Positions 5,216 through 55,850 of a DNA stretch of 64,000 bases are shown piece after piece (position 1 is the first letter of the stretch; every line of letters begins with the position of its first letter). Below the pieces are notes generated by a model, which was not told where the DNA came from, searched no databases, and saw only the letters and a program-made list of their open reading frames with translations. Source of the DNA: Neocallimastix lanati (nom. inval.) (taxonomy: Eukaryota; Neocallimastigomycota; Neocallimastigomycetes; Neocallimastigales; Neocallimastigaceae); contig JACVTC010000056.1 of assembly GCA_016946835.1 (NCBI GenBank), forward strand, positions 936,001-1,000,000, in the 5' to 3' direction. The translations under genes and the position numbers were made by a program.

Positions 5216-5468
5216 AATACTTTAATATAATATTATAAAAAATACTAATTATAAACCTATTTATATATTTATTTTTTTTTAAATTATTCAATTATATAAT
5301 TACGTATGTAATTCTGTTGATAATATAAACAAAGTATTAATGTATTAATAATAATTAATAATATTTAAAATAAAATAAAAAAAATATAATAATTATTTTA
5401 TATATGTAGTAATTATATATATATATATTTTTATTTAATTTTCTAAAAAAAAATTTTTTAGTCATAAT
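5216..5468. other. A+T-rich spacer left of Copia-2
   Basis: Short-repeat A/T sequence without coding signal. Its last five bases, ATAAT (5464-5468), are the left copy of the Copia-2 target-site duplication. Confidence 0.6.
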
Positions 5469-5757
5469 TGTTAAAAATATATATTAATATAAAATTTAAT
5501 CTATGATTATCCAATATTTTACAAATGCAAAATACTCGAAATACTATAAAACGTGCTTAAATAATAATCCTTATTTTTTTTTTTTTCTCTTTAACAATAA
5601 AAAACCTTAATTTATATATACGATCATACATACTTAATTATATATATTTATAATAATAAATATTAATATATAATAAAGAATATAAAACCTCTTTACTTAA
5701 ACATAATTATAATATTATCTTAATATTGTGTGTCTCTTAATTGTGTGTTTATTAACA
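5469..5757 (+). repeat. Copia-2 5' LTR
   Basis: It begins TGTTAAAAAT and ends TATTAACA, the usual TG...CA termini. It matches 11728-12016 over its full length with only a few differences. Confidence 0.93.
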
Positions 5758-5788
5758 GATTAAGAGTCTCAATCTCAACCGATTGAGA
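5758..5788 (+). promoter_or_regulatory. Copia-2 primer-binding site, half-tRNA-Lys(CUU) type
   Basis: The site directly abuts the LTR and begins GATTAAGAGTCTCA. Its reverse complement, TGAGACTCTTAATC, is the anticodon stem-loop of eukaryotic tRNA-Lys with anticodon CUU. The next bases (ATCTCAACCGATTGAGA) are the complement of a D-arm resembling CTCAATCGGTTGAG. A normal PBS would start TGG to pair with the CCA end; this one does not. Drosophila copia is known to prime from a 5' half of initiator tRNA-Met, so I infer equivalent priming here from a half tRNA-Lys. Confidence 0.8.
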
Positions 5789-6484: not shown

Positions 6485-7211
6485 ATACTAAAAAAAATAT
6501 AATAAAGTCAATTTCTTTTCTATAAACTAAATTTTAAAATTATAATTTAAAATATAAATAAACATAATTCAAATTAAATTTTACACAATAAATAAATAAT
6601 AATATGAAATTGGTCAAATCACAAAATAATTAAATCACTTTTAATATAAACAAATGTCATAATAAAAATTTAAAATATTTTTTATAAACAACTCACCAAT
6701 AGTTAGATTTTAATATAAACTAACAATAAACATAAAATATAAATATGACAATCAAATAACTATTTTGTATAATTAAAATCAACAAATGATCAATATTATA
6801 ACCAAGAAAATATTAATAAAATAATAACGACAATACAATTTTGTTAATATTAATTTATTTATAATATATTGATCATGTTTAATATAAGCAAAATATACAG
6901 ATGACATCTGATTAATCACTTCATATATAAATAAAAATTTTCTTAACGTTCCAATTATATATATTAATTTAATAAATCATCAACCAAACAAAATATTGAA
7001 ATAAATCATGTTTCTAAAAATAATAACCAATACTTTTTTTTTTTAAAGCAAAATTGATATTTTATGAATTCAAATAGTACTTTTTAGAAATATAAATAAA
7101 CTCAAATTATATTTTTTTACTCTTCAAAATTATTTAAAGAAAGTAATAAAATAATTAATAAGCAATTATAATTCATTATAACATTTTTTTTTTTTTCGGA
7201 ATTAAACTAAC

Positions 7212-10200
7212 ATGAGCAGAAATAACTTAAGAATTAATTCTAGAAATAGTATCAATTCTACCCAAGACCAAATAATAAACATCAGTGAATATGAACCCAC
7301 ACAAAAGGGGTTCACTTTTAACTACAGTGAAAACTTTAACCATATTACGGAATTGACAACAGATAACTTTGTTAACTGGAAAACAAATATCCTTTATCTC
7401 CTTTGTATTAATAACCTCGATGACTACATAAGTCATGAAAAAGTGAAAAAGATAAGAAGGAGAGATATAACAGAAAGCATTGAAAAATATACGATTGATA
7501 AATTCGATAATTTCCTTGTGTACGAAATCGGAACAAGCGAAAAAGATATTAAAAATGACATATTAGTAAAATGGATCATAACAAATAATCTTGGTGAGAA
7601 CACCAAGAAAATATTGGAAAGTCAAAGCAAAACGGCCTTCCAATTATGGGAACTACTTAACAAGTCTTTTACCATAGGACCTGAACAAAGAAAAATGGTC
7701 CTAAAAGACAAAATCAATAAATTGAAATATAATTTAGAAGATGATGTCCATATTTTCTTAGCTGTCTTACAAAATCTCCTGGATGAATTGGAAAGAATAG
7801 ACTCCGATATTAATGACAATGTTAAGGTCGGTATTTTAAATCGAGCTCTCCCTGAAAACATTAGATTCATTAATGTTTTCCAATACAATAATAATTGGAC
7901 AAAATGCTGCGACTATGTCAAAAGGATAATACCAGATATTGTTTTCTCCAATATCAGAGAAACAGCTTTAATCGAACAAAACCCGAAGAATATATTAAGT
8001 TTAGAAAATGGACGAAAAATCTCTAAACCTAAGAAAATAAAATACAAAAAAAGAAGAAATGGAAAATACTACCTTTGTGGAAAGTTCGGACACTACCGAA
8101 AAGACTGCTTAAAAAACAAATTTAATAAAAACAAAAGAAATAACAAACAATATAAAAGAAAAAGTAATACAAAAAAATTCAACAAAGAAAAACCAAGAGA
8201 AGGTCATGCATATCTATTAAACGATAAAAAGGATTATAATGAAAACTACCAAGAAGACTTCTCAAGAGACTATAAAAACTCACCAATCGCAATCATCTAT
8301 GACGACAAAGGTAATAGAATATATCAATCAGCAGCAGACAATAAAAATATATTTAAAATATATTTATCAAAAGCACCATCCATTTTTCATAAGAACAATA
8401 ATTTCGAAAATTTGAATGAAATTAATTCAACATATATCAACAATCAAAAAAATTTTGATCTTTGGCATAGACGCCTGGGCCATTTCGACATTACTAAAAT
8501 AAAAGATAATTTAAAAAATACCAATACAAATCACAAATGTCAAATATGTTCCAATTCAAAATTAAGGAACAAACCTTTCAAAAGATCAATTAATAAAACA
8601 AAACACATTTTCGAACTTATACATCTTGATTTAGTGGGCCCCGTATTGCCATCCTTAAATAAAAATATATACTTCCTCACAATCCTGGATGACTTTTCTA
8701 GATATGGCTGGGTCTTATTCCTACAACATAAAAATGAAACATTCAATAAATTCATTATTTGGTACAAAGAAGTTTTAAACACATTCAGCATTAAAATCAA
8801 AAATATTCGATCAGATAATGGAAGGGAATTTTTTAATAATAATTTCAAAATATTCTGTCAAAATAATGGTATAATACATCAATACACTATAGCATATAAT
8901 CCAGCTCAAAACGGGAAAGCTGAACGATTCAACGGCATACTTATATCTTCCGCAAAAGCTCTACTAAATGAATCAAAACTTTCTCATAATTTTTGGGAAT
9001 TTGCTGTCGATACAGTAAATTATATTCACAATCGTTTACCCCATCAGGGTATAAACAATAAAGTACCATTTGAGATTCTATATAATAAACCTGTTGATTA
9101 CAGCATATTTAGAGTTTTTGGATGCAGAGTATTTTTCTTTATACCAAAAGAACTACGATCCAAATTTGATAATAATTCACACCCTGGAATTTTCTTAGGA
9201 TATTGCAATAACCCATCATCTTATAAAATCCTTGATTTAACCAACAATAAAATCGTGCTATCTCGAACTGTCCAATTTTTTGAAAACGATCCTGGAAATT
9301 CAGTCTTACTAAACTATAATTCCAATAACGAATTCAGGGTGAATGATTACTCTGTCAAAAATTTTTCAAACAATAATTATAACAATTATAATTATCAAAA
9401 ATACAACAACAACAATCACAACTATCAAAACAACTATAATAATATTAACGATTCACAATATAATAGCAATATTTTAAGAAATAAAAATAAACATAAAACT
9501 TATAAAAAACAAAACAAAATAAAAATAATAATCCAGAAGATAATAATAATTCAGAAAATGACAACATTACTTCAAATAATATCAACATCAATAATGAAAA
9601 CAACATTAACAATACTAGTAATAATACTTTCAATAATAACAATAAAAATAACACTAATAATCAAAATAATATCTATATCAATGATTCATCAATCAATAAT
9701 AATAATAAATTAAACAACAATAATACTTGCAACACTAATACAAGAAACTATAGAAATAATGAATTTAATGACAATAATATTACCAATAATCTTAATAAAA
9801 ATAATGATAATATTCCTAATAAAAATACAACTGAAGAATCTAATATGGAAAGTACAATTAATTACGTATATAAATTAAACAATACTAATAACAATAAAAT
9901 TGAAATATCCCACTATCAACACAATATAACAAACAATAATACAAATAAAAGAAACATTAATTATGAAGCAAAAGCATCAAGCAAAAAAATAAAATATAGT
10001 GAAAAGAATATATCAAAATTAAATGAAGAAAACAATATATTCAGAGAACCATATAACTTTAAAGATATATTTAACCTTAAAGATAAAGAGCAATGGATGG
10101 AAGCCGTAAATGAAGAATTAAAAAATATGGAAAAGCTAAATGTTTTTCAGATTGTAAATTCAGTTCCAGAAGGATCTAACGTTATATCATCACGTTGGGT

Positions 10201-11565
10201 ATTTAAATATAAAAGAGACTCCAACGGTAATATAATAAAAAGAAAAGCAAGATTAGTTACGAAAGGTTATACGCAGCAGTATGGAATTGATTTCAAGGAA
10301 ACGTTTGCTCCAACTTTAAAACAAGATACAATAAGGATTATCACAGCAATAGCTGTTCAGCATAATTTTAATATCGAACAAATAGACATTAACTCTGCAT
10401 ACCTTAATGCAGATTTAAAAGAAGATATATATATGAAATCTCCCGAAGGTCATCATTCATTCAATAAATGTTTCTGGAAGCTTAAAAAGGCCCTTTATGG
10501 CTTAAAGCAAGCTGGGAAAGAATGGAATGAAAAATTGAATAATGAGCTTCTTAAATTAAATTTTAGAAGAGCTAAGAGTGAACCTTGCGTTTATATTAAG
10601 ACAGATAGGAATAATAAAATAATATGCATTTTGTCGATATACGTAGATGATATATTAATTGCGGGAACAGATCATGAAATCAAAATTGTAAAGATTCAAT
10701 AAAAAGAAAATTTAATATTAAAGATATAGGTAATGTAGAATTCGTTATAGGAATTAAATTTAATAAGATCAGAAATGGCTATATTTTACATCAAATAAGA
10801 TATATTAACGATATATTATTCAAATATGAAATTAATAAACTTACACCATCGAAAAATTTAATACCAGTTGAAAATAATAAATTGAAATGCATAAAATTTA
10901 ATGAAACGGAATACCGAAGTGGCATTGGGAACCTATTGTATCTTGCTATTTGTACCCGACCTGATATCCTATTTGCTGTGAGTAGAGCAGCAAGAAAATC
11001 CAATAACCCTAACTTAGAGGATTGGAATAATGTTCTTAAAATATTCAGATACTTAATGTACACAAAAAACTATGGTATAAAAATTGAAAAAGGCATTAAC
11101 CTTAAGGTTTATGTAGACGCAGATTTCGCTGGAGACTCAATCACAAGAAAATCTACTACAGGATTCCTGATGATGATGGGAAGAACGCCAACCAGTTGGT
11201 TCTCGAAATTGCAACATTGCGTTTCTACCTCAACGGCCGAAGCTGAGTATTATAGTTTGAGCGAATGCGCAAAGCATTCATTATGGTATAAGAATTTATT
11301 AAACGAACTTGGAATAAAAATTAATAATGTAAAAATTTTCGTCGACAATAAAGCAACAATATATAATAGTGAGAATCAGTCAATTAATCCCAAGTCGAAA
11401 CACATTGATATTCGGTATCATCATATTAGAGATCTTGTTAATAAAGGATTAATCAAATTGAATTACATAAACACTAAAGAAAATTTAGCCGACGGATTCA
11501 CGAAATACTTAAACAATACTTTAATGGATAAATTTAGAATTTCCCTTCTTACTAAAATTGAATAA
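7212..11565 (+). pseudogene. Copia-2 gag-pol coding region (broken)
   Basis: The region starts at ATG 7212 after an A/T-rich leader. Parts seen in order: a gag capsid-like N-terminus with a zinc-knuckle-like basic segment (CGKFGHYRKDC), integrase (LWHRRLGHF; LDLVGP; IRSDNGREF; FWEFAVDTVNYIHNRLP), an Asn-rich linker, reverse transcriptase (SSRWVFKYKRD; LKKALYGLKQAGKEWN; YVDDIL catalytic box) and RNase H (STAEAEYYSLSECAKHSLW; VDNKAT; the closing DGFTKYLNNTLMDKFR block). This is the Ty1/copia order. It is broken at roughly three places. Function would be self-propagation through reverse transcription in cytoplasmic particles. Confidence 0.9.
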
Positions 11566-11727: not shown

Positions 11728-12016
11728 TTTTAAAAATATATATTAATATAAAATTTAATCTATGATTATCCAATATTTTACAAATGCAAAATACTCGAAA
11801 TACTATAAAACGTGCTTAAATAATAATCCTAATTTTTTTTTTTTTCTCTTTAACAATAAAAAACCTTAATATATATATACGATCATACATACTTAATTAT
11901 ATATATTTATAATAATAAATATTAATATATAATAAAGAATATAAAACCTCTTTACTTAAACATAATTATAATATTATCTTAATATTGTGTGTCTCTTAAT
12001 TGTGTGTTTATTAACA
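11728..12016 (+). repeat. Copia-2 3' LTR
   Basis: It is nearly identical to the 5' LTR and ends TTAACA. The purine-rich stretch GATTTTAGGGTGAA just upstream is the likely plus-strand primer tract. It is followed by the target duplication ATAAT. Confidence 0.92.
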
Positions 12017-12021
12017 ATAAT

Positions 12022-12275: not shown

Positions 12276-12513
12276 TGTTAGAATATAAAAAAATAAATAC
12301 TTAATAATGACTTTAATATAATTTACCCAATCAGAATATTATTATATTTAAATAAAATTATAAAAGAAATAAAATGTAACCTTGTTAAAAAACATACACT
12401 TTTGTAATCATAAAAAATTAAAGTTAAATAAAATTAAATATTAAGTATTATATATAAAATGCTACTCTAAAAATATATCTAATTTTCTCAATATTTATTT
12501 TTGGTGTTTAATA
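12276..12513 (+). repeat. Copia-1 copy C 5' LTR
   Basis: It begins TGTTAGAATATAA and ends GGTGTTTAATA immediately before the primer-binding site. It matches 18221-18459, 49757-49997 and 55911-56152. Confidence 0.92.
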
Positions 12514-12545
12514 GATTAAGAGTCTCAGTCTACAACTGAGCTTAA
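12514..12545 (+). promoter_or_regulatory. Copia-1 copy C primer-binding site, half-tRNA-Lys(CUU) type
   Basis: It starts GATTAAGAGTCTCA directly at the LTR edge. The continuation GTCTACAACTGAGC is the complement of a tRNA D-arm resembling GCTCAGTTGTAGAC. The logic is the same as at 5758 and 49998. Confidence 0.78.
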
Positions 12546-18459: not shown

Positions 18460-19460
18460 AATCCAATATTATTAATAAAAGCTTGATAATACAATGAAAT
18501 AGAAATTATTATGAATTAAAGTTTGAAAATGTGATAAAATAATTGGGGGTCAAAACTATTTATTGTACAAATTTAGATAATTTATATAATTTTATTGTAA
18601 TGTTTTTGAATTATTGGATATATAATTTTATTAAATTTTTTTTTATTAATATTTATATATATATTTTTTTTTATAATATATTTTTTTTATTAAATAAATT
18701 TTGTTTATATTGTATGTATCCTTTAATTCGTGTATAAAATTAAGCAATATAGGACATTTAAATTTATTAGGTACTATTAATAGTAACAAATTTTGTTTTG
18801 TGCATGTATATTATCGCGTATATTAAGTGTACTTAGTTTATAGCTATGAATATACTTGATTACTTCTTTTATATATTAACTTAATTTAGTTATGATTTAT
18901 TTTTCATAAAAATGAAATTTATAATGCTTTTACTTAATTTAATATAAATTAAAATATGAATATTGAATTTTTATTACATATTTTATTATTGTTGGTGCTT
19001 TTAATTGTTTTGTAATTCGTGGATATATTATTATAGCTAAGATATATTGGTTGCTTTTGTTTATTTGTATTGTTTAGTAATATAAAATTGTTATCTTTAT
19101 TAAATATTTATATTAAATTTTAATATAGGTACAACATTATTTTTAAAAATATAAACGTAATATAAGTATCTAATTTTTGTTTATATTAATTTAATTTGAA
19201 TGTTAATTTTAGAAACAATATAATATTACTTAAAATGTAAAGATAATTTTAGTTTAATAATATATGTTTTGATATTATTTTCAGATTAACATTTTATTAA
19301 CTGACAATTATTATATTTTCAGTTTAATAATATTGTTTAGTTATCTTCCTATCAAATTTTTATTTAATAATTTCAATTGATTTATCTTATTATTTTAAGA
19401 TCAATTGATTTCTTTATTATTTGCAGATTAACATTTATGTTACCTGATTATTATTCTATT
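18460..19460. other. A+T-rich spacer, no gene seen
   Basis: Low-complexity A/T sequence. A 64-codon open frame at 18543-18737 is almost entirely Phe/Tyr/Ile/Leu/Asn, as expected from base composition, and is not supported as a gene. Imperfect repeats containing GCAGATTAACATTT occur near 19280-19440. Confidence 0.5.
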
Positions 19461-19669
19461 TGTGAAAAGTATAAATCTCTTTTTTTATTATATAAGAATA
19501 AAGAATAGTATGCTTACATAATTTTATACTTCTTTATGGTATTTATAGTAAAAATAATATGTGGCTTTTTGTTACTATTGGTCACATATCTTACACTAAT
19601 ATATTAATTTATATAACATTACTCCTTTAAATAATATAACTCTAAATCTTAATATTTTTGTTTCTAACA
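19461..19669 (-). repeat. LTR-3 3' LTR (truncated copy)
   Basis: Read on the minus strand it begins TGTTAGAAACAAAAATATTA and ends ACTTTTCACA. It matches the LTRs at 31328-31534 and 35293-35499. Confidence 0.88.
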
Positions 19670-19715
19670 TACCCCCTCAAGTCTAACTTTGGGTGAAAGT
19701 TAGAATTGAAGAGAA
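19670..19715 (-). promoter_or_regulatory. LTR-3 polypurine tract and pre-PPT hairpin
   Basis: On the minus strand, TCAATTCTAACTTT and AAAGTTAGACTTGA form a nearly perfect 14-bp stem around a CACCC loop. The stem runs directly into GGGGGTA and the LTR start. The same hairpin occurs at 31535 and, in related form, in LTR-4. Confidence 0.75.
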
Positions 19716-19979
19716 ATATTGCAAATGTATTACTATATAAAATAATATTTTTAATAATAATACAACTAACATATTATTAAGTGTATTAAAAGAATTATTT
19801 TTATTTTTATTTGTAAACTTAAGAATTTTTTTTATATATTTTAAATTCTAACGTTTCCCCTTACTTTCAAATTGGATTAGAGTTATTTTTTTTATTATTA
19901 CTATTATTTATTAATCTTTCTTTACTTAAATTATTATTATGTCTTTTTATCTTATTTTATTATTATTATTATTTTTTAT

Positions 19980-21160
19980 TTATATGAATCACTTTCTGGG
20001 AAATAATTTATTGTTTGATGATAGAAAATATTCATAGAATCATACATAGATTGAAGGTAAATTGGTATATCAGCCTTACCCTTAGCTTCTAATAATTCAA
20101 TATTTTTAATAACTTCTTCACATAATAATTCATATTTATCCTTCTTTATTTTATAAAATTGTTCTTGTTCCCTTAATATTGAGGTAGCACGTCTACATTC
20201 TTGAATGCCATTAATTTCGGTACTTAATCTTTATTTTGTTTGAGCAATCATTTGAGTAGTAATATCCATTTCAGTACGAACATTATTATAATGTAAACAG
20301 AATCTTCGGCATCACGAATAGCTTTATCTAAGAAAGTTTTTAGCCATTCATGGAAGTTTTCCATAACAGGTAAGTATAAATAATTAATATCTTTAGAACT
20401 TGAACTTAAAGAATAACTAACAAGATTTATCCATTTTTTTTTTATAAAACAACTTTATCTCCTTTTGATTTTGCATCTTTAGATACAAAGGCAAATCGCT
20501 TTTGTTCGTTCATAGTTGTTTTCATACAATTAATCATCTTTTTAATATTATCTTCGTTTGTTTGATATATTTCTTCAATCTATTAAGTATATCAATAGTC
20601 GTATCAACCTTTGGATCAACAGTTTTAACTGATTAGAAAAAGCCAAACTGAGCGTTAACTTGTTTTTTAAAAGCTTGATTAAAGCAAGCTGAAAATAAAT
20701 AAAAAAAAATTACAAAACTATAACAATATATAATTTATAATATTGGTTTATTGTTGATTATTACATTTATACTAATATATTTTTTTTTATTTTATATATA
20801 CATTGATTATATTAAGAGTATTGTATATAACTGTATTTAAATAAAGTGTGTTTTTTATTATTATTATTTTTTTTTTTTTTTTTTTTTTTTTACTAATTAT
20901 AAATAATAAAATTTAATTCATTTGATAAAATGCTGTATTTGTCATCATGTATTACTAGAATATCTCCATTAAATTAATTATAATTTTTATAAAATAAATA
21001 TAACACTGTTTCAAAATCTACAATGCATTTGTCATTTATTTGTTAATTCAAAGTAATATCTTTTAAATAATAATAAATTGCGAAGGATAAACGTAACTTC
21101 TTATTTTCAATAATATTAAAACACCATTGCGAAGATTCATCGGATAAATGAGTTAATTTC
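19980..21160 (-). pseudogene. Host-like gene fragment (BAR-domain-like) inside LTR-3
   Basis: The minus strand reads as ordinary soluble protein in several frames: MKLTHLSDESSQWCFNIIEN near 21160, KKMINCMKTTMNEQKRFAF near 20510, MENFHEWLKTFLDKAIRD near 20330 and YLQSMYDSMNIFYHQ near 20040. Long charged amphipathic helices, a conserved KYELL segment and the closing LQSMYDSMN-type helix resemble fungal BAR-domain (membrane-curving) proteins. That assignment is by pattern only. A pyrimidine tract ending TTTTCAG near 20692 looks like an unspliced intron 3' end between two coding blocks. The fragment has the same orientation as the LTRs. It is broken and not expected to be expressed as a full protein. 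Confidence 0.5.
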
Positions 21161-21420
21161 ATAAAAAATTAATTAATATCTTAAATTCTTATTGTAAAAT
21201 AAATCAATTCCAACAATAATTAAAAATATATAAAACTTAACATGTACAAATCAACAATTCTGTAATATAAATTTAAAATATTCATTAAACATAAATTTAA
21301 AATATTTATGATATATACAAATTTTAATTATTTTCGAAAATAAGTATCAATTTTTATATATTATTTAATGAATACATTAAATATTAGGAATAAAAATAAT
21401 AAAAAAAAATAATAAAATAC

Positions 21421-23071: not shown

Positions 23072-24240
23072 TGTAAATATAAACAATAATTTATATATTA
23101 ATCCAAATGTAAACATTAACAACATCATAAGTAGTCCAATTAATCCAAAAATGACCAGTAAAGAAGCAACAGCACTATCAACAAATGGTATAAATAAATA
23201 CATTGAATTAATTCCATCTTTATCATAGAAAGCACCAGAACAACTAGCTTTAATATTATTATATTTTAATAACTCTTTAAGAGCTTTAGAATCAGAAATA
23301 GTAAGTTCATAATGACTAATTGAAGTAAGAATATCTTTATAATCAGTTGAGGAATCTGGAACATCAAAGACTATATCTTTATACTTCATTTGAATTTGTT
23401 CTGCTAATTATTACCTTCAGAATTTAATTGAGAACCTACAGTAGCTTTAACTTGAGTAATATCAGAAAAATCTTTGAAGTATCTGGTTCTGAATTTAAAT
23501 ATGCTACTCTGAAAATTTTTTTTTGATATTTTTCAATTTGTATTTTAAGTTCAACAAGAAAAATTTGATGAATAATAGAATTAAATAGAGCACCATTTTC
23601 ATTTTCTAAATAAATTGAATTAATAGGTAATGTAACGGAATAGGAGAGAATACCATAACTATCTAAATAATTTGAATAATAGAATTTTTTGTTCCATCAG
23701 TAATATATAATGTTTTCATTTTAATTGAAATGCCAGAATATTTGTTATAAAAATACCATTTTAAGTATCTATATCTATGATTCACAATTTATAAACAATC
23801 CTTGTTGTTATCTTAAATAATTATTTTCTTTTTGTTGTAAATCAGCCAAATCATTTTATTCGATATATATTATATAGTATTATACTAAAATTATAATGTA
23901 TTAATATTAAACACCGAATATAATTAAATTGCTTATAAGATTTAGTATCACTAGCTTTAGTATTGGAGTTATAACGAGCATACAAAATACAATGAACTCA
24001 ATTATAATCAAAAATCCTAGAATACCAAAAAAAAAAAAAAAAAAATTCAAGATTATGTTCAGTGTCAGTTTCCCTCTCTGGTTGTTTAGGTAAGATGCAT
24101 TCTCCATCACAATATCCTTTGCATATTCATCTTCAGTGGTTCAAGGATCTCCTACAAATCTACCACAATGTCCATCTATACAAAGTTTGATATCTCCGTT
24201 TTCATTAAATACACATCTAGTATCCACACATTTATTTGTA
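23060..24240 (-). pseudogene. Broken host-like gene for a Cys-containing membrane protein, inside LTR-4
   Basis: On the minus strand, pieces of one or two proteins are visible. A Cys-rich segment (LCIDGHCGRFVGDP) lies near 24170 and is followed by a 67-codon open frame (24110-23907) ending in a very hydrophobic stretch. Further on, a 109-codon frame (23389-23060) starts MKYKDIVFDVPDSSTDYKDI and ends in two hydrophobic segments that look like membrane spans. Stops and frame changes separate the pieces. The orientation is opposite to the adjacent LTR (24323-24562, plus), so the host sequence sits antisense in the element. The 24240-23755 part recurs nearly unchanged at 63090-63582. The protein family is not recognised. 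Confidence 0.5.
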
Positions 24241-24283
24241 AAGCATTAAATGAGGAATAATTATTTCCGCTGCAACTCTTAAT

Positions 24284-24322
24284 TCAAGTCTAACTTCATA
24301 GAAAGCTAGACTTGAGGGGGAG
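24284..24322 (+). promoter_or_regulatory. LTR-4 pre-PPT hairpin and polypurine tract
   Basis: TCAAGTCTA (24284-24292) and TAGACTTGA (24307-24315) form a perfect 9-bp stem that merges into GAGGGGGAG, which touches the LTR start at 24323. Confidence 0.75.
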
Positions 24323-24562
24323 TGTTAAAATATAAATATTGAAGTTTTGTATATATATAATCTTAAGGAGTTTTGTGATATATTTTAATATATATATTTT
24401 CAAGTATAAGACCAATAATATATTTGTGTAACCTAAATAAAATAACTATAAATATTTTATAATATAAAATTCTTTAATAATAACTCCTTTTAATAAAATA
24501 GATGAAATTAAATTTACATTTTCTATAAACATAAATAAAAACGAATCTTTTACTTTTTAAAA
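24323..24562 (+). repeat. LTR-4 3' LTR
   Basis: It begins TGTTAAAATATAAATATTG directly after the purine tract. It matches the minus-strand LTR at 62777-63015 (which ends TTTTTAACA) with about four differences. Confidence 0.8.
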
Positions 24563-24953: not shown

Positions 24954-27923
24954 TTATAATTCATACAAGGATTGTTTACTATAAAAATTATGGAGTAATT
25001 TATCTGTTTGATAATCATTTAAATCCTTATTATCTTTAATACTAAAAAATAATTTTTTAAGTTGAATGAGTTTTTTAATTAATGTATCATTGGTAATAAA
25101 ATCATTTGTAAAAATAACATCTACTGTCATTGTTTTTTCTGATACTTCAGGTGTTGTAATATCATAGCCATAAATTGAGATAGTTCGATTTTCATTGAGA
25201 ATTGGTAAGGGGGCATTTTTAATTTTTGGATATCCTATGACATAATTAGGATAAAATAGATGTTCTGTACCATAAATATTATAATTGATTACCATATAGA
25301 GAGAAAGGAATTCATATCGTTTTTCTTCTTCTTTGTTCATATGATTTATGTTATCTTCAATATATTCTTGATAAAGTTGACGTGCTGGTTCAAAGAGATC
25401 ACGATATAATGGATATGGTGCATTTTTTAATATACGATACTTTCGATAACCCAATCGTCCAAAGTATTCTAAAATAATATCATAGGTATAGAAAAAGGAA
25501 AAATATTTAGAATTGGATTTCATTTCTTTTTTTTCTTCATTATCGAGAGGACCTTCGAAATTATATTTCGGATTAAATTGTTGATCGAAAAAGAATCTTG
25601 GATGAACTGGATTAATGAAGAAGTGATTTGGCCTGAGATAAATAAATCGTTCAGATAGATCAGGAATTTTATCTAAAAATGTTTCAATAATATTTCGATT
25701 TAGTGTTTGACCAACAGTCTCAGGTAGTAAATCATGAGGGTGAATCCAATGAACTTTTTTTTTTTGAAGATTTAACCATGGAAGTACCTCTTCTTGTTCC
25801 CCCTCGCCAATGATATAAATATCTCCTTCGAACCACGGTAAATAGAGATCAATAGATCTCAAGGAATATTTTAATTCTTCTATTTCTCTTAATCTTGATT
25901 TTTTCATTTCGGTAAAACTTTTAAAAGAAGTTTTATTTGAATCGTTTATATAATCTTTATTTAAGTAATTTTTCAATTTATTTAATAATAAAAAATCATT
26001 AGATGGATTTGAATTCTTAAGGAAATTTAATGTACTTTCTAACAAATACACAATAGAAACAGATTTTGCCCATTGCCATTCAGATGTCAGATTTTCACCA
26101 TGATAATTATGAAGAAGATCAATTTCTTCCATTTCTTTTTTACTTACTTTTTTCTTAGGACCAGAGAGTTCATTTCTTTGTTGAATATAATTAGGTATCA
26201 ATTCTTTCATTTTGTAGGTTTGAAGAACATAATTAAAAATTTTTATTTTCGATTTATTATAGATATCTTTTTTACTTTTAGAAATATCTAAGGAAATATC
26301 ATTAATAGTAGCTAATTTTGAATACAATTTATTTTCTAATGAAATATATTCACTTTTTTCAAAAGAGGAAGGCTCCGGATGTTGTGTTAACAAGAACTCT
26401 GTAAATTCATAAAGAGCTTGATTACTTGAATATTCGTCATTGAAATTATAAACAAGAATTTCAGGATGTGATTTAATATGTTCGAAAATTTTTTTATTTC
26501 CCCTAAAATCATTTTTAATTTTACCAAATTTTATATATTTATTAGTGATTTCTCCCTGAATAACACGAATGGAATAGCGTTGGATTGTTCGATTGGCCGG
26601 TAGTTCAATAGTTCCTTTGTAGTTTCTAGCAATTCCCATTCCTCCCATTCGTAAAGGAAATTTTTCATTGGAAGTGGCATATTCTACAAAAGCATAATAG
26701 AGATAAAGTGTTTGAATTGAATAATGATTTCTAAATCGATCAGAGAGATTGCTTTGTAATTCCTTCTCAAATAATAACCGAAAAGGTTCAAAGAGATCAC
26801 GATAGAGAACATAGATACTATGATGAATATAAAAATATTTGAATTTTGGATCAAAATATTTTTTGATGAGTTGATCCGTAAAATAACAATTCGTCAGAAA
26901 CATTTTCTTTCTTTCTGAAATGAAATTTAAAATGGAATTCTGAGAAACATTTAGGGTGTTGTTATTTTTGTAGATGATTGGAGAAAAGTTTCCATCATTA
27001 GAAAATAAGAAACTTGGATGAATATAATGATTTAAGAAATAATCATCATTTAAATATATAAATTTTTCTGTAACCCCTGGAATTCTATCAAGAAATAATT
27101 CAATTGTATTTGAATTGAAAGTTGGATAGATACCTTTTGAAAGTATGATTTTATGGTCAATAACTTTTATTCTTGAATTGTGAATATTTAACCATTCAGG
27201 AATTTGATGACAAGTAACAATGTAGATCATTCCCTGATGCCATGGCATATATTTTTCTACTGAACGAATTGAGTATTTTAATTCATCTGCTGAACGATCT
27301 CGACTACTGACATTGTAGACACCCCCATTGTATTTCGCTTTCAAATTTTGAAAATTAATGTCAGAGCCATCCACCCATGTATAAACTATTGATATATTTT
27401 TTACCCATTCCCATTCGGGTTCTATATCACCACCATTATACCGAAGTAAATTTTCAATATGATCATTGTCTGTTAATTCTTTATTTGTAAATATTGAAGA
27501 ATTATTTAGAATAGAATTCTTTAAATTAGTATCATATTTACTAAATATATTTTTATTCCAATAATGATCATCTTTACTTTGATATATATTTTTTTTTCCT
27601 GAATGATCATTATTATTTAAATTTTCATTTATAAAATTTTCATTTTCATTATTAAAATTAATATTAGCATTTTTATCATTATTATCGATATGACTGTCAA
27701 TATTTATATTTGTAGAATCTATTTTATTATTATTGTTAGGATCATCATTAATCTTATTATTGTATTTATATCCTTGATTTATAATAATATTATTATTGAC
27801 AGAAGTTTCAGTAAGAACTAATCCCTGAATAGATCTTATATTAAACCATAACAAATAAAATATGGTTACCATTTTGATTGAAATTGATTGCATTATATAT
27901 TGCTTAATAAATTTATTAAACAA
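24954..27923 (-). CDS. Stealth-family sugar-phosphate transferase-like protein with two Stealth-like halves
   Basis: This is an uninterrupted 989-residue frame. A hydrophobic N-terminus (about residues 11-34) looks like a signal peptide or anchor, followed by a low-complexity Asn/Asp-rich stretch to about 150. Half 1 has the Stealth blocks in order: CR1 SIVYTWVDGSD (178-188), CR2 ELKYSIRSVEKYMPWHQ to FIYLNDDYFLNHYIHPSF (about 214-305), CR3 with YRDLFEPFR and DRFRNHYSIQTLYLYY (about 365-412), and CR4-like FNDEYSSNQ to HPEPSSFE (about 493-521). Half 2 (about 600-890) repeats the layout but is degenerate: SIVYLLES replaces SIVYTWVDGS and FIYLRPNHFF replaces FIYLNDDYFL. Known Stealth proteins (bacterial capsule enzymes, animal GlcNAc-1-phosphotransferase) transfer sugar-phosphate groups to glycans, so a secretory-pathway glycan role is inferred. 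The paralogue lies at 59285-61834 on the other strand. No introns are needed. Confidence 0.88.
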   Translation of the reverse strand: MFNKFIKQYIMQSISIKMVTIFYLLWFNIRSIQGLVLTETSVNNNIIINQGYKYNNKINDDPNNNNKIDSTNINIDSHIDNNDKNANINFNNENENFINENLNNNDHSGKKNIYQSKDDHYWNKNIFSKYDTNLKNSILNNSSIFTNKELTDNDHIENLLRYNGGDIEPEWEWVKNISIVYTWVDGSDINFQNLKAKYNGGVYNVSSRDRSADELKYSIRSVEKYMPWHQGMIYIVTCHQIPEWLNIHNSRIKVIDHKIILSKGIYPTFNSNTIELFLDRIPGVTEKFIYLNDDYFLNHYIHPSFLFSNDGNFSPIIYKNNNTLNVSQNSILNFISERKKMFLTNCYFTDQLIKKYFDPKFKYFYIHHSIYVLYRDLFEPFRLLFEKELQSNLSDRFRNHYSIQTLYLYYAFVEYATSNEKFPLRMGGMGIARNYKGTIELPANRTIQRYSIRVIQGEITNKYIKFGKIKNDFRGNKKIFEHIKSHPEILVYNFNDEYSSNQALYEFTEFLLTQHPEPSSFEKSEYISLENKLYSKLATINDISLDISKSKKDIYNKSKIKIFNYVLQTYKMKELIPNYIQQRNELSGPKKKVSKKEMEEIDLLHNYHGENLTSEWQWAKSVSIVYLLESTLNFLKNSNPSNDFLLLNKLKNYLNKDYINDSNKTSFKSFTEMKKSRLREIEELKYSLRSIDLYLPWFEGDIYIIGEGEQEEVLPWLNLQKKKVHWIHPHDLLPETVGQTLNRNIIETFLDKIPDLSERFIYLRPNHFFINPVHPRFFFDQQFNPKYNFEGPLDNEEKKEMKSNSKYFSFFYTYDIILEYFGRLGYRKYRILKNAPYPLYRDLFEPARQLYQEYIEDNINHMNKEEEKRYEFLSLYMVINYNIYGTEHLFYPNYVIGYPKIKNAPLPILNENRTISIYGYDITTPEVSEKTMTVDVIFTNDFITNDTLIKKLIQLKKLFFSIKDNKDLNDYQTDKLLHNFYSKQSLYEL

Positions 27924-29569
27924 AATTTAATATAAAATAAAATATTATGTATTGAAAATAAAAATAATAAATATAATATATAAAATAAAGAGTTTTAATA
28001 GGATATATATAATTAGTAATAAAATTGTATATATAAAATTTGTTATAAGATATACTAATTTATAATATTTAAAATATTATTTTATTAAATAAATAAATCT
28101 ATAAAAAAAATAATAAAAATTTATTTAATTGATACAATACTTCAATATTTTTGAAACCATTATAATTAGGTAAGTAATTGAAAAAAATTTTTTAAGAACT
28201 CATTATAATTATAAAGTAAAAAATATTAATATTTTAATAAGAAAAAAAACATACTTTCCTTACAAAGGGAAAAATACTAAAAAAAAAAAATTATAAAAAA
28301 ATATATTTTTATTTTTATATAATTTATATTAATTTAGAAATTTTTATATAATAAATTATAATAATAAACGATTAGATTAAAATATAACAAAATTGTTTAA
28401 ATAAAAAACTATTAAATAATTTATATGAAAATTGTATAAACAGTTTTGATTTTTTTTATTTAAAAAAATTATAAATTTTGGAATTTTATTTTTAATTGAT
28501 GAACTCTAAATTCAAATAAAATTTTTTAAATCTTTATTTAGTTTTAACAAATTTTTTATATGATTATAAAATATTTAGTTTAAAAAGATTCTTTAAAAAT
28601 AATCGGAACCTTAAAAATGAATTTTTTATGATTAAATTTTAACTTATTTTATTTTTTAATTAAATTAAAAAAATTTTAATTATAAAATTAATTAAATTTA
28701 AAAAAAATATAATAGCAAAGAAAAGTAATATTCATGACTTATTATTTATATAAAAAAAAGTATATTAAAATTTATTCAATATCTTTAAGGATATTTAACG
28801 TTCAAAATATCTTACTTTAATAAATAATCTTTTCATAAAATATTTTATTAAAATGTACTATTTTATATTTCAATTAAACAAAAAAATATTTTAATTTATA
28901 AAGAAGAATTATTTTAATAATTTTATTACATATCTAATATTATTTTTATTTTGTTTAGTTTTAATAAATATATACAAAATAGAATTTAAATCATAATATA
29001 TTTATAAATATACTTAGAAATTCTATTGTAATAAATATAACATATTAAAATCGTTACTACTATAAATAAAATTATAATTTAAAATAAAATTTTACGAGTT
29101 TATTTTATTAATAAAACATGATCCAATATTTGATAATAAAATAATTTAATGTTAATTATTATATATTTATAAATTATATTCTACAGATGAAATTTTTATT
29201 TCTAATTTTTGTTGATTATAAAATAATAATAATTAAAATTACTTTCATAAAAATTCATAAAAAGTATAATTTCATTATTTCATGTTATTTTTATTTTAAA
29301 GGATAAAAAATCTTATATTTTCAGTTTATTTACATTTCAATTTTAAGTTAATATATTCATTAATATTATAACAGTACACCCAATTTAAAAATATAATATA
29401 TTAATTTTTAATTTTTATATTATTTAAATTAATAATAATAAATAACTGTTATAATAATAATCTATTTTATTATGTAAAAATTCAATGATAATATATAATT
29501 TAATAATAAACATTAATATGATATATACTTGTAATTTAAAATATGGTTAATTAATATTATGGTACTCTT
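27924..29569. other. Long A+T-rich intergenic region
   Basis: Upstream of Stealth gene 1, so it should contain its promoter, but no individual element stands out. No open frame beyond chance, no RNA gene, no LTR terminus. Confidence 0.5.
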
Positions 29570-31327: not shown

Positions 31328-31534
31328 TGTGAAAAGTATAAATCTCTTTTTTATTATATAAGAATAAAGAATAGTATATATAAATAATTTTATACTTCTT
31401 CTGGTATTTATAGTAAACATAATATGTGGTTTTTTGTTACTATTGGTCACATATCTTACACTAATATATTAATTTATATAACATTACTCCTTTAAATAAT
31501 ATAACTATAAATCTTAATATTTTTGTTTCTAACA
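31328..31534 (-). repeat. LTR-3 3' LTR (complete element)
   Basis: On the minus strand it begins TGTTAGAAACAAAAATATTA and ends ACTTTTCACA. It appears identical to 35293-35499. Confidence 0.92.
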
Positions 31535-31581
31535 TTCCCCCTCAAATTTAACTTTGGGTGAAAGTTAGAGTTGAAGAGAAA
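31535..31581 (-). promoter_or_regulatory. LTR-3 polypurine tract and pre-PPT hairpin (complete element)
   Basis: On the minus strand AACTTT-CACCC-AAAGTT forms the core stem, with weaker outer pairing, running into TTGAGGGGGAA and the LTR. Confidence 0.72.
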
Positions 31582-31849
31582 TATTGCAAATGTATTACTA
31601 TATAAAATAATATTTTATTTTTAATAATAATAATACAAATAACATATTATAAAGTACATGAAAAATATTTATTTTATTTTTATTTGTAAATTAAAGAAAT
31701 TATTTTTATATATTTTAGATTCTAACGTTTCTCCTTACTTTCAAATTGGATTGGTGTTATTTTTTTATTATTACTATTATTTATTAATCTTTCTTTATTT
31801 AAATTATTATTATGTCTTTTTATCTTATTTTATTATAATTATTATTTTT

Positions 31850-32301
31850 TATTTATATGAATCACTTTCTGGGAAGAAATTTATTGTTTGATGATAGAAA
31901 ATATTCATAGAATCATACATAGATTGAAGGTAATTTAGTATATCAGCCTTACCCTTAGCTTCTCATAATTCAATATTTTTAATAATTTCTTCACATAATA
32001 ATTCATATTTATCCTTCTTTATTTTATAAGATTGTTCATGTTCCCTTAATATGAGGTAGCACGTCTACATTCTTGAATGCCATTAATTTCGGTACTTAAT
32101 CTTTATTTTATTTGAGCTATCATTTGAGTAGTAATATCCATTTCAGTACGAACATTATTATAATTGTAAACAGAATCTTCGGCATCACGAATAGCTTTAT
32201 CTAAGAAAGTTTTTAGCCATTCATGGAAGTTTTCCATAGCTGGTAAGTATTTATAATCAATAACTTTAGAACTTGAACTTAAAGAATAACTAAAAAGATT
32301 T

Positions 32302-32337
<36 letters not shown>

Positions 32338-33614: not shown

Positions 33615-33645
<31 letters not shown>

Positions 33646-34966: not shown

Positions 34967-35261
34967 CTATTATTTTATTTTAATATTTTCTTTTTATCTA
35001 ATTATATGTATATGTATTTATATCATTTTTATTTTTAGAAAATTAATAATTACTATGACCTATTACAATAAGAATTTTAATTTAAATTTTATATCCTTAA
35101 CATTCTCACAATTGTTCTGTAATATTTTCTTATCGATATCGGTTATTACGTTTTGTTTCTATAATAAATTTTATAAAAATAATAAAAATATATTTTTATT
35201 AGTTTGATTATTAATTATAAAATGATTTTATATTTTATATATTTCAACTTAGCTTTATTGA

Positions 35262-35292
35262 TAGCTCAACTGAAGAGTTGAGACTCTTAATC
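35262..35292 (-). promoter_or_regulatory. LTR-3 primer-binding site, half-tRNA-Lys(CUU) type
   Basis: The plus strand here reads like the tRNA itself: TAGCTCAACTGAAGAG (D-arm-like) followed by TTGAGACTCTTAATC (anticodon stem-loop of tRNA-Lys CUU). It abuts the LTR end without a gap, so on the element's own (minus) strand it is the primer-binding site. Confidence 0.8.
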
Positions 35293-35499
35293 TGTGAAAA
35301 GTATAAATCTCTTTTTTATTATATAAGAATAAAGAATAGTATATATAAATAATTTTATACTTCTTCTGGTATTTATAGTAAACATAATATGTGGTTTTTT
35401 GTTACTATTGGTCACATATCTTACACTAATATATTAATTTATATAACATTACTCCTTTAAATAATATAACTATAAATCTTAATATTTTTGTTTCTAACA
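35293..35499 (-). repeat. LTR-3 5' LTR (complete element)
   Basis: It appears identical to 31328-31534. It is followed on the plus strand by the target duplication GTATA. Confidence 0.92.
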
Positions 35500-49756: not shown

Positions 49757-49997
49757 TGTTAGAATATAAAAAAAAATAAATACTTAATAATGACTTTAAT
49801 ATATTTTACCCAATCAGAATATTATTATATTTAAATAAAATTATAAAAGAAATAAAATGTAACCTTGTTAAAAAATATATACACTTTTGTAATTATAAAA
49901 AATAAAGATAAATAAAATTAAATATTAAGTATTATATATAAAATGCTATTCTAAAAATATATCTAATTTTCTCAATATTTGTTTTTGGTGTTTAATA
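49757..49997 (+). repeat. Copia-1 copy D 5' LTR
   Basis: Begins TGTTAGAATATAA, ends GGTGTTTAATA. Confidence 0.94.
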
Positions 49998-50029
49998 GAT
50001 TAAGAGTCTCAGTCTACAACTGAGCTTAA
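49998..50029 (+). promoter_or_regulatory. Copia-1 copy D primer-binding site, half-tRNA-Lys(CUU) type
   Basis: GATTAAGAGTCTCA directly at the LTR edge, then GTCTACAACTGAGC. It is complementary to the anticodon arm and then, imperfectly, to the D-arm of tRNA-Lys(CUU). Confidence 0.8.
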
Positions 50030-50681: not shown

Positions 50682-51208
50682 ATATTATTGTCAATTATTA
50701 ACAATAAAATTAAAAAAAAAAAAAAAAATATATATTTTTAATTTCAATATTAATAAATGTAAATCAAGTATAAATACCTTTTTCAAACATAAAAAACCAA
50801 TAATATAAATGTTTAATTAAATTAATTTCAAATAGCATAATGAAAAATATTGCATTAAAAAATAAGATAAAAATAGAAACCAATCATAATTCTGAAATAT
50901 ATTATTTTATAACCTTTTTTTTATTAAGTAATAAATATAACTTAATCAATTTTCAAAAAATATATATTATTAAAGTTCATTATAAATTATCAAGGAAATA
51001 TTAAACAATATATATTTCAATTTACATTTATTTAATGAAAATAGAATATGGTTTTAATCAATATATTGAATATGTATAAATAAACAATCCAGAAATACAA
51101 CATATCTCTCATCAATTATCTTTTAAAATTTTAAAAAAAAAAAAATATTCGCATAATATAAAATATTAATAAATTATTAAAAAATAAATTAATTTAAAAT
51201 TCTCCACA

Positions 51209-54200
51209 ATGGCTAACACAAGAAGAAACAATAGAAATGAAGTAATTACCATTGAAGAACCCATTGACATCAGGCCAACAATTAAATTTAACTACTCTGA
51301 AAATTTTAACAGAGTAGTTGAATTAAATACTGAAAACTATAATAGATGGAGAACCAAAATCCTTCATCTATTATCAATTAACAACCTAGTTGGCTATATC
51401 ACCAAAGAAAAAGTTAAGAAATTAAGGAAGAGAGATATACAAGATGACCTATCTGAGTATATCGAAGATGAATTTGATGACACATTGGTGTATGACAAAA
51501 ACACCAATGTAGTTAATATCAATAACGATATCACAACAAAATGGATCGTCCTAAACAGTATTGGAGAAAAAACACAAGACATTGTGCAAGGATCAAATAA
51601 AACCGCCTTTGAATTGTGGAAGATTCTAAAAAGATCTTTTACCAAAAACATCAACACGCGTAAATTAGAACTTAAAAACGAACTCGATAATTTGAAGTAT
51701 AACCCAGAAGTGGACATTAATATATTTATTGCTGAACTACAGAACACACTTGATGAACTCGAGAAAATAGATAATGACATTGAATCAAGTGTTAAAGTAG
51801 GTATCCATAACAGAAGCCTCCCAGAAGAACTCCGTTGGATTAATTTGTTTCAATTTAAAAATGATTGGAATAAATGCAGTGAATATGTTAAGGATGTATT
51901 GCCTGAAATAATTTCTTCAAACCTAAAAAAATCCTTAACAAATAATCAAAATAATAAAAATATATTTTCAATAGAAAATAATACTAACATTAATACAAAT
52001 AAGAAAAAACTTACTAAAATAAAAACATCTACTAAAAAGACCAAAAATGGTAGATGTAATTATTGTGGTAAATGGGGCCATTTCTTTTATGACTGTAAAA
52101 TTAGAAGAGATAATAAAAATAATAACAAAAGAAGAAAAATTTTCAAAAGAAGAAGAAATAATTTTAAAAGAATATTTAATAAAGGTAGAAATTATGCAAA
52201 TTTCATGGAAAAAGAAAGGTACGATACAAGCTATGCCGATTCTTTTACCAAGGATTACAATTCTCAAGAAAACCTTGATATTAATTTTGCCGAAGTAAAT
52301 AAACAAAACGAAGAAAATAAACAAAAAGAAATGATGTGTTGGATATTGGATTCCGGCGCATCAATAAATATTACTGGTCATTTAAATAAATTACATAATA
52401 TTCAAAAGTGCAATGACAAAGTTTATTTAGTTAATAATCAAGTTATATCAACACAATTTAAAGGAGATCTCATAGGATACATTAGTAATCACAAAATAAT
52501 CATTAAGAATGTTTATTACTCACCAAAAATAAATAAAAATTTATTATCAATTGGAAATCTTAAACAACAAGGATACAAAATAATTTTCAATAATACTAAT
52601 AATAAATCATATGCACTAATTTATGACGAACACAATCAAGGAATATTATCAAATAAGTCGAACCAATCTAATACATTTAAATTTTGGATTTCAACTCAAC
52701 CATTAAATTTTCAAAACAACCAACATAATAATAATTTGGTTGAAATCAATTATACACATTTAAAATCAATTGATAAACTAAATTTATGGCATCGTCGTTT
52801 TGCCCATTTTAATATCAATATTATCAAAAATAAAATTATAAAAATCAACATAAACTCAAAGTGCCCTATTTGTAGTTATTCAAAACTTAAAAATAAGCCC
52901 TTCAAATCATCACATAATATAGCCAAAAACATATATCAACTCATACACATGGATCTTATAGGTCCAATACAAAACTCTATCTATGACAATAAATATATCT
53001 TAACCATTTTGGATGACCATTCAAGATTTGGGTGGACTCTCTTTATGAAGAGTAAATCAGAAACTTTTTATCACTTCCTTAATTGGTTTAATAAAATAAA
53101 AAATCAATTTAACAAAAGAATTCAATATATCCGTACAGATAATGGTACCGAATTTAACAACAAAAATTTCAAACAATTTTGCATTGACTTTAGAATACAA
53201 CATCAATTTACTGTTCCCTACAATCCACAACAAAATGGTAGGATTGAACGATTCAACGGCACTATAATCAATTCTGCAAAGTCAATGTTAAATGACGCAA
53301 AACTTAGCTTACAATTTTGGGAAGACGCCGTCTCTACTTCGAACTACATTCATAATCGAATCCCTCATAAAGGGATAAATAATAAAATTCCATATGAACT
53401 TTTAACCAATAACAAAGTTGATTATTCAAACCTACGTGTCTTCGGATGTAAAGTTTTTTATTACGTTCCAAAACTATTCCGTACCAAATTTCAAAATAAT
53501 TCATCTCCTGGCATATTCTTGGGGTATGTTGATAATCCCACAGCATACAAAATTCTTGATATAACAAATAATAAAATTATAATTTCACGAAATGTTGAAT
53601 TCTTTGAATTTACACCAGGAAATTCACATTTATCTCATTGCGATAATGACATCTTAAATTTTATTCCCAATAATATAATAAGGAGGAATAATAATACCTA
53701 CTTTTATGATAACACGTATGATATAAACCATGGCAAAGACTTTAATAATACTAAAAATAATAATCCGTATTATCAATATAATAACAATAAGTCAAATAAT
53801 ATTCAAATATTAGACAATAATACTCAAATAAATGAAAATAATATACCAAGTAAAAACATTCAAATAAAAAATAAAAGAACATATAACAAAAGAAGAAACA
53901 ACAATAATAACAACACCAAAAATATTAATAATAATCAAAACAAAGATTATAATAATAATATAGAATCTCAAGATAATAACATTAACAACAACGACAATAA
54001 TAATAACAATAACACAAGCAACGATAACACAAACAGCAACAACAACACTACCAACAGCAATAATAACAAAATAAATAATAATATTAATGAAAACGACAAT
54101 ATGATCACTGTCAGTAATAAAAACAATCATAATAATTCAAATATAGACAGATATAATTCAAACAATAATAAAGATAACAACAATGAACAACGAATCATTA

Positions 54201-55850
54201 ATAACTTAACGAATAACAAATTATTTAACATAGAATCTTCCATACATTTAGGAAAAAGAAATAGAAATGAAAACTTCATATTAAATTCAAATAACAAAAA
54301 ACAAAAATCATTAAAAGAATTACGCGAACCAAATAATTATGATGATATCTTTAATTTAAATGATAAAAATGAATGGTTAAAATCAGTCGATAATGAACTC
54401 GACAATATGAGAAATCTAAAAGTATACGAAACAATTAATAAAATACCTAAGAACGCAAACTTAATATCATCAAGATGGATTTTTAAATTCAAACGAAACT
54501 CAAATGGAGAAATAATCAAAAGAAAATCAAGATTAGTAGCAAAGGGATTTACGCAAGAATACGGCATAGATTATAAAGAAACCTTTGCATCTACCTTAAA
54601 ACAGGATTCAATAAGAATCTTTACAGCAATTGCTACTCAGAACAATTTTGAAATAAACCAAATAGATATAACTGCCGCCTATTTAAATGCTGAATTAAAT
54701 GAAGATTTGTATATGAAATCACCCAAAAGACATGAAGATTACAATAAGAAATTTTGGAAATTGAAGAAGGCAATATATGGACTGAAACAAAGTGGTGCCA
54801 AGTGGAATGATAAATTAAACTGCTATCTAATAAAAATTGGATATAAAAGACTTATAAGTGAACCTTGTCTGTACGTTAAATTTAATAAAGGAAAACTTTT
54901 AAGTATGTTAGCTATATATGTGGATGATATTTTAATATCAGGATCAAAGAAAACAATAGAAAGTGTAAAATTATTAATTGAGAAAAAGTTCAAAATGAAA
55001 GATATAGGTAATGTTGATTATATTATTGGAATAAAATTTATAAAACATAAAAATGGTTACTTTTTACATCAACACAGATATATAGATGAATTACTTTCTA
55101 AGTTTAATATGAAAAATTGTACACCTCTTAGAATTATGACTCCAATTGAAAATGAAGATCATAGGAAGGTAAAAGTAGATGAAACAAAATATAGAAGCAT
55201 AATAGGAAATTTATTATATCTCAGTATATGTACAAGACCCGACATTATCTTCTCTGTATCAAAAGCAGCTAGAAGAGCAAAGAACCAAATATGGAAGACT
55301 GGAATAACGTAATGAGAATATTAAGATATTTAAAAGGAACTAAAAAATATGGAATAAATTTCACAAATAATCCGAATGTTAAAGCGTATGTCGATTCGGA
55401 TTACCGAGGTGACTTGGAAACTAGACGTTCAACAACAGGATTCTTAATAACATTTGGCGGTGCACCAACAAGCTGGTGTTCAAAGTTATAAAAATCAATA
55501 TCGACTTCAACAGCCGAGTCCGAATATTACAGTCTTAGTGAATGCGGTAAACAATGTATATGGTACATAAATTTATTCAAAGAATTGAACTTAAATATTA
55601 AAAATATTGAAGTAAATGTTGACAATAAAGCAGCTATTTATAATGCTACAAATCAAACTATCAACCCAAAAACTAAACATGTAGACATTAGGGTTCATTA
55701 CATAAGAGAAATAGTCAAAGAAAATAAAATCTATCTTAAATATATAAAATCTGAAAACAATCTCGCTGATGGGTTTACGAAGTATTTAAATGGGACATTA
55801 ATGGATAAATTTAGAAATTCCTTATTAACAAAAATTGATGATTTATATTT
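51209..55850 (+). pseudogene. Copia-1 copy D gag-pol coding region (broken)
   Basis: Starts at ATG 51209 (MANTRRNNRNEV). Order: gag with CCHC knuckle (CNYCGKWGHFFYDC), aspartic protease (WILDSGASINITG), integrase (LWHRRFAHF; CPICSYSK; DLIGP; RTDNGTEF; NPQQNGRIERFNG), an Asn-rich linker of about 200 residues, reverse transcriptase (SSRWIFKFKR; KLKKAIYGLKQSGAKWN; YVDDIL) and RNase H, ending with NNLADGFTKYLNGTLMDKFR. Gag and pol share one long frame, as in many plant and insect copia elements and unlike yeast Ty1 with its +1 frameshift. About two breaks. Confidence 0.94.

Follow-up and report, generated by a model that had tools for sequence, protein, structure and literature searches.

A 14-nt sequence, GATTAAGAGTCTCA, directly adjoins the 5′ LTRs of four elements in a 64-kb stretch of the genome of the gut fungus Neocallimastix lanati (nom. 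inval.), and is complementary to positions 27-40 of tRNA-Lys(CUU). We consider it very probable that these and similar sites are PBSs of LTR retrotransposons, mainly of the Ty1/Copia superfamily, which would be primed by a 5′ fragment of tRNA-Lys(CUU), with a core rewritten from the tRNA as far as G26 and a downstream stretch that may switch between a hairpin and pairing with the tRNA D-arm. As far as sequence can tell, this is a real feature of a known kind, to which the predicted hairpin and D-arm pairing are two statistically supported additions.

Half-tRNA sites next to LTRs

The window (the whole stretch analyzed, 64,000 nucleotides of contig JACVTC010000056.1, whose own numbering is used below) has exact copies of GATTAAGAGTCTCA at 5758, 12514 and 49998 on the forward strand and at 35292 on the reverse strand. 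With up to two mismatches allowed there are six matches, including these four, while shuffled windows are expected to give 0.41. The elements and their parts are as follows.

5469..5757 (+): Copia-2 5′ LTR (TG...CA), TSD ATAAT at 5464-5468
5758..5771 (+): Copia-2 PBS, complement of tRNA-Lys(CUU) 27-40
5768..5787 (+): Copia-2 predicted hairpin CTCAATC/TCAACC/GATTGAG (cluster represented by L089)
7206..11565 (+): Copia-2 gag-pol in overlapping frames, with Retrotran_gag_2, rve and RVT_2
about 11728-12016 (+): Copia-2 3′ LTR, TSD at 12017-12021; LTR pair 99% identical
12276..12513 (+): Copia-1a 5′ LTR; 3′ LTR end at about 18459
12514..12527 (+): Copia-1a PBS
12524..12540 (+): Copia-1a predicted hairpin CTCAGT/CTACA/ACTGAG, then CT
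35293..35499 (-): LTR-3 5′ LTR (TGTTAG...CACA), TSD TATAC; 3′ LTR at 31328-31534
35279..35292 (-): LTR-3 PBS
35265..35282 (-): LTR-3 predicted hairpin CTCAACT/CTTC/AGTTGAG, then CTA (cluster represented by L087)
49757..49997 (+): Copia-1b 5′ LTR, ending TTTAATA, TSD CATAT; 3′ LTR at about 55911-56152
49998..50011 (+): Copia-1b PBS
50008..50024 (+): Copia-1b predicted hairpin, identical in sequence to that of Copia-1a
51188..55312 (+): Copia-1b gag-pol open frame, with Retrotran_gag_2, rve and RVT_2

A preliminary description of this DNA had placed GATTAAGAGTCTCA against 5′ LTRs and had noted that none of the sites begins with TGG. Both observations were borne out: the four sites are exact, the LTRs are genuine with a spacer of 0 nt between LTR and PBS core in every case, and no TGG occurs within 100 nt past any of the four. 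The sites show what is seen in half-tRNA Copia elements, namely an anticodon-arm complement as PBS, an adjoining LTR and the lack of a TGG site, and Copia-1b and Copia-2 also have the marks of Ty1/Copia (RVT_2, an upstream integrase, LTRs and a 5-bp TSD). A matching TSD was not found at the LTR flanks of Copia-1a. LTR-3 is probably non-autonomous, because no ORF of at least 150 aa lies between its LTRs; coding domains were not found there either. Since the tRNA match is exact, the LTR spacing is zero, a TGG site is lacking and the LTRs contain no long complement suited to self-priming, we regard it as well supported that these elements would be primed by half of tRNA-Lys(CUU).

As a separate observation, the LTR pair of LTR-3 (31328-35499) is 99.5% identical, and a partial second copy of the element, at 92% identity, lies at 19457-21169.

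One tRNA and many sites

The genomic tRNA-Lys(CUU) begins GCCCGGCTAGCTCAATCGGTAGAGCGTGAGACTCTTAATC and has G at position 26. Its positions 27-40 are matched exactly by the complement of GATTAAGAGTCTCA, which confirms the earlier assignment to the anticodon stem-loop of this tRNA. A motif search for the gene gave 75 matches, two of which have printed letters off the pattern, and ARAGORN called a tRNA-Lys(CUU) gene in nine of 10 loci scanned. The 29 copies in 30 loci (L001-L030) have one sequence across the gene, and a 33-nt search allowing up to three mismatches returned 73 copies genome-wide, all 73 exact, with no variant at one to three mismatches. It had been suggested that the element families track the tRNA or drift from it. 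Tracking of tRNA variants by the families is not supported, since the tRNA copies found are without variation over these 33 nt.

We scanned 199 Mb in 762 contigs and found 1902 exact copies of GATTAAGAGTCTCA, compared with none of the reversed-pattern control. Removal of the 73 that are tRNA-Lys(CUU) genes leaves 1829 sites. At up to one mismatch there are 2573 matches versus 22 in the reversed control, and the one-base-variant pattern GTTTAAGAGTCTCA occurs at eight sites. For detailed comparison we read 64 distinct sites (the four of the window plus 60 from loci at 62 of the first 100 listed places), which fall into 46 clusters, two of them from adjacent sites of locus L032. Because sites were sampled with the exact 14-nt word, identity over these 14 nt within the sample is by construction. 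Of the 51 sampled sites whose upstream sequence was covered, 50 have an LTR ending in A and 30 one ending in CA.

As an observation on the tRNA genes themselves, tRNA-Ile(AAU) adjoins tRNA-Lys(CUU) in all nine ARAGORN-called loci. The two form arrays, together with other tRNAs, in which the strand switches about every 5.5 kb (loci L001-L030, on contigs C94, C188, C251, C266 and others).

Element types behind the site

Twenty loci of 9.5 kb, two pairs of which overlap, were read at length. Copia-type domains or Copia RT matches lie behind the site in 13 of them (L032, L033, L034, L036, L037, L038, L039, L042, L044, L046, L047, L048 and L050), with an additional Gypsy frame about 3 kb downstream in L047. 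One locus, L035, looks to be of Gypsy type; in four (L031, L040, L041 and L043) Copia or Gypsy domains were not found in the part of the frames scanned, and two (L045 and L049) were covered in part only. Six of 16 loci examined have a 3′ copy of the LTR in which 58 or more of 60 nt match. Within the best 150 RVT_2 matches, on contigs with a complete site list, seven of eight have a same-strand site 2.7-5.3 kb upstream and one has none, and four of the seven site-bearing matches resemble one family by equal score. By eye, none of five Gypsy integrase matches (best 150, complete-list contigs) has a site within 6 kb upstream. Eight site-sharing elements have pairwise RT identities of 37-68%, the one exception being the two Copia-1 copies at 95%.

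In L035, a PBS near 8501 (-) is followed by the degraded remains of a Gypsy-type element with RVT_1, RNase H and H2C2 integrase. The Gypsy RT lies about 1.1 kb past the site, and an LTR pair was not found. Because of this RT we do not claim that the site is exclusive to Copia, and use of the half-tRNA-Lys site by a Gypsy element is possible.

The match stops at position 27

If the tRNA complement continued past the core, base 15 of the site would be C. In the 46 clusters it is T in 19, A in 15, G in 10 and C in only two, and none of the 1829 non-tRNA sites continues directly with CGCTC, the exact complement of tRNA positions 22-26. Genome-wide, GATTAAGAGTCTCACGCTC is found solely in the 73 tRNA genes. 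Because the sample was selected by the 14-nt word, this boundary shows that the match stops at 27 and does not bear on the evenness of the core. We rejected a direct D-stem complement as a general feature: the 84 matches to CGCTC comprise the 73 tRNA genes and 11 others, all of one AGCGCTC/GCGCTC type.

Predicted D-arm pairing downstream of the core

The preliminary description had each site continue with a D-arm complement, giving about 30 nt of pairing in several families, for which a match over tRNA positions of about 10-40 would be support. The match at 27-40 is exact. Beyond it, the D-arm complement is real in the window elements but imperfect, with no exact complement of 22-26: the Copia-2 site agrees with 29 of 33 positions of tRNA 8-40 by eye, and the Copia-1 and LTR-3 sites need gaps to be aligned with the same stretch. 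In Copia-2, ACCGATTGAG is exact to tRNA 11-20 and the predicted hairpin overlaps the D-arm complement; in Copia-1a the end of the stem plus CT (TGAGCT) is the complement of tRNA 9-14, and in LTR-3 the end of the stem plus CTA (GAGCTA) that of tRNA 8-13.

We compared the predicted duplex energy of each site with tRNA 1-40 to that of dinucleotide-shuffled downstream sequence. Of the 46 clusters, 13 pair better than the shuffles at p<=0.05 (Fisher 2e-8), and all but two of these (11) belong to a hand-defined group A that includes Copia-1, Copia-2 and LTR-3. Pairing of about 30 nt is thus not general. Local alignment supports 12 of 46 clusters (Fisher 1e-5), while the combined test on the longest exact match is not significant over the 46 clusters (p=0.08). 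GAGCTA lies 6-18 nt past the core at 173 sites against 1.6 expected, or about 100 element sites after subtraction of the 73 tRNA genes. Among 11 tRNA D-arms, that of tRNA-Lys(CUU) scores highest in only five of 46 clusters because the D-arms are alike. Those of other tRNAs often score equally, and the D-arm part alone is therefore not specific to Lys(CUU). Clusters share common ancestry, so the Fisher values here and for the hairpin below overstate significance.

A predicted hairpin that includes the PBS

Over the 46 clusters, the PBS pairs better with the 26 nt that follow it than with shuffles (Fisher about 1e-13), with 12 clusters at p<=0.05 and seven at p<=0.01. Controls with the reversed PBS (p=0.78) and the complement PBS (p=0.29) are negative, and one with the reverse-complement PBS is weakly positive (p=0.02, nine of 46 clusters at p<=0.05). 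A GACTC arm stands 1-6 nt past the core, with varied spacers, at 555 sites where about 2.3 are expected, and is present in 12 of 46 clusters. In group A the predicted stem consists of CTCA/TGAG and the inner pairs ATC/GAT, ACT/AGT or GT/AC, whose arms change together. The outer stem is partly lost in four loci (L032, L039, L078 and L040), two inner pairs are missing in L080, and one is missing in Copia-1 and L075. Part of the variation between families preserves the predicted hairpin between PBS and downstream sequence, and the covariation in group A is suggestive only, since a permutation test on its six distinct arm combinations gives p=0.12.

Proposed mechanism and alternatives

The sequences, the end of the exact match at position 27 and the statistics are directly shown, and from them we infer fragment priming, cleavage after C40, a stop at G26 and a role for the hairpin. 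The primer would be a 5′ piece of tRNA-Lys(CUU) with C40 as its last base; its 3′ 14 nt (27-40, the anticodon arm) would pair with the PBS and its 3′-OH would be extended into the LTR, beginning minus-strand DNA synthesis. Plus-strand strong-stop DNA would then copy the attached tRNA piece and halt before G26, with nucleotide 27 the last to be copied, probably at a dimethylated G26. In eukaryotes, Trm1 usually dimethylates this base. Modifications in tRNA cause reverse transcriptase pausing (PMC4697793). Each cycle would thus rewrite the 14-nt core from the tRNA, which would explain why it is identical in distant families, while the sequence downstream would not be rewritten. The element RNA of many families could fold back onto the PBS, and the stretch that does so could, in one group, also pair partially with the tRNA D-arm. 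A closed hairpin could therefore give way at the site to an extended duplex with the tRNA. We offer the fullest form of this only tentatively, as a possible but rather doubtful two-state leader RNA, in which the D-arm of the tRNA-Lys(CUU) 5′ half would invade the PBS-closing hairpin to form up to about 33 paired nt, and rewriting bounded by G26 would keep the core unchanged across distant Copia lineages, possibly with one Gypsy family among its users.

The most serious competitor is that the downstream stretch serves solely to form an intramolecular PBS hairpin, its D-arm resemblance being a by-product of the complementarity between tRNA positions 11-14 (CTCA) and 27-30 (TGAG). Families without D-arm similarity also have hairpins, and the arms ATC/GAT, ACT/AGT and GT/AC vary by family yet pair, as this reading would have it; we find it quite plausible, if somewhat short of an even chance. 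It accounts less well for the exact TACCGATTGAG (L085), ACCGATTGAG (Copia-2 cluster) and GATTGAGCTA (L082), which reach beyond the stem, or for GAGCTA at the roughly 100 element sites noted above. At the opposite extreme, pairing of about 30 nt could be the functional PBS of all families, with their differences due to decay. The 13 clusters with additional pairing speak for this, but the other 33 of 46 fail at p<=0.05, Copia-2 and LTR-3 look recent (LTRs 99% and 99.5% identical) and yet depart from the tRNA complement, and 0 of 1829 sites keep an exact 22-26 complement beside the core, all of which makes the reading very improbable.

Self-priming as in Tf1, where the 5′ end of the element RNA would fold onto the PBS and be cleaved to give the primer, seems more improbable still, given that the site is an exact tRNA match. 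The Copia-2 LTR does contain an 8-nt PBS complement (p=0.06), and the LTR ends GACTCTTAACA in L031 and L063 are able to pair with the PBS. The longest complement in the other window LTRs is only 5-6 nt, measured across whole LTRs within which the transcript start is not fixed and, for Copia-1a, Copia-1b and LTR-3, including about 7-10 flanking nt. Upstream complementarity is weak overall, reaching p<=0.05 in four of 38 families (Fisher 0.016), and is located close to the 3′ end of the LTR rather than at the RNA 5′ end. An inverted repeat between LTR end and PBS was likewise too weak to be kept as a general feature.

Relation to known elements

To our knowledge, few elements, copia and Ty5 among them, have had their half-tRNA priming studied. 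The yeast element Ty5 uses half of initiator tRNA-Met as its primer. The same half primes Drosophila copia (PMC5371799). Both share with the present elements an internal anticodon-arm PBS and membership of the Ty1/Copia superfamily, and differ in using initiator tRNA-Met in place of tRNA-Lys(CUU). A gag fragment in L037 matches the Pfam Ty5 gag model (E=2.5e-5). Yeast Ty1 is primed by tRNAiMet via its 3′ end. In the absence of tRNA its PBS is masked by pairing with CYC5, and it has further tRNA-binding motifs, BOX0 and BOX1 (PMC9503155). Intramolecular PBS masking and additional tRNA contacts are common to Ty1 and the arrangement proposed here, in which the masking partner would be sequence a few nucleotides downstream rather than CYC5. 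In plants, Bianca uses half of tRNA-Ile, and Osser, Bryco and Gymco-II use half of tRNA-Met; these are half-tRNA PBSs in Copia elements as here, with different tRNAs, and every half-tRNA user of that survey is Copia (PMC6317226).

Closest are the FunCo1 Copia elements of Pezizomycotina, whose 11-nt PBS ATTAAGAGTCT matches half of tRNA-Lys and which their authors report from none of 245 Basidiomycota genomes tested (PMC5445492). Priming by half of tRNA-Lys(CUU), the best reading here, is therefore not new. The window sites contain ATTAAGAGTCT and so resemble FunCo1 in PBS sequence. FunCo1 differs in its ascomycete hosts, and the portion of PMC5445492 describing it mentions neither a D-arm extension nor a PBS hairpin nor a boundary at position 26. 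Fungal GalEa Copia elements have a hairpin-forming Conserved Hairpin Site in the place of the PBS beside the 5′ LTR; there the hairpin replaces the PBS, with no tRNA match reported (PMC5445492), whereas here a tRNA-matching PBS lies within the predicted stem. A search of the open-access literature for the sequence strings returned, by title, only PMC5445492 in a retrotransposon context. As far as such searches go, what is new is that the site occurs in a gut fungus, that the match stops at G26, that a half-tRNA PBS forms part of a predicted hairpin and that one group has a D-arm complement. With this host, tRNA-Lys half priming would extend beyond ascomycetes into an early-diverging fungal phylum. 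The roughly 1829 natural sites, spread over diverged lineages and set against one invariant tRNA, amount to a natural experiment in how PBS length is fixed (tRNA modification) and in whether PBS folding evolves jointly with additional tRNA contacts.

Other observations

A motif, AAGYTAAG, occurs at 5797 (+), 12550 (+) and 35255-35248 (-) in the window, about 22-26 nt past the PBS core in the window elements and their relatives, and its match to the tRNA half is limited to AGCTA. Genome-wide, 308 sites have it 22-40 nt downstream (control 0; 1.75 expected). Three contigs hold 51 of the first 100 such sites listed (C75 20, C90 20 and C102 11), and the four window sites, all with the motif, span less than 45 kb. 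Clusters of these sites are possibly centromere-like or heterochromatic nests.

The CBM_10 model of fungal dockerins was matched by all 150 scored candidates, of 1440 at first look; such an abundance of dockerins is a mark of anaerobic gut fungi. The window has a GC content of 14-28% in 4-kb bins and also encodes two Stealth-domain proteins (CR1/CR2) at 24954-27926 (-) and 59279-61834 (+) and a putative Mannosyl_trans3 protein at 46138-47661 (-). The segments 23818-24540 and 62798-63520 form a pair of inverted repeats with 99% complementarity.
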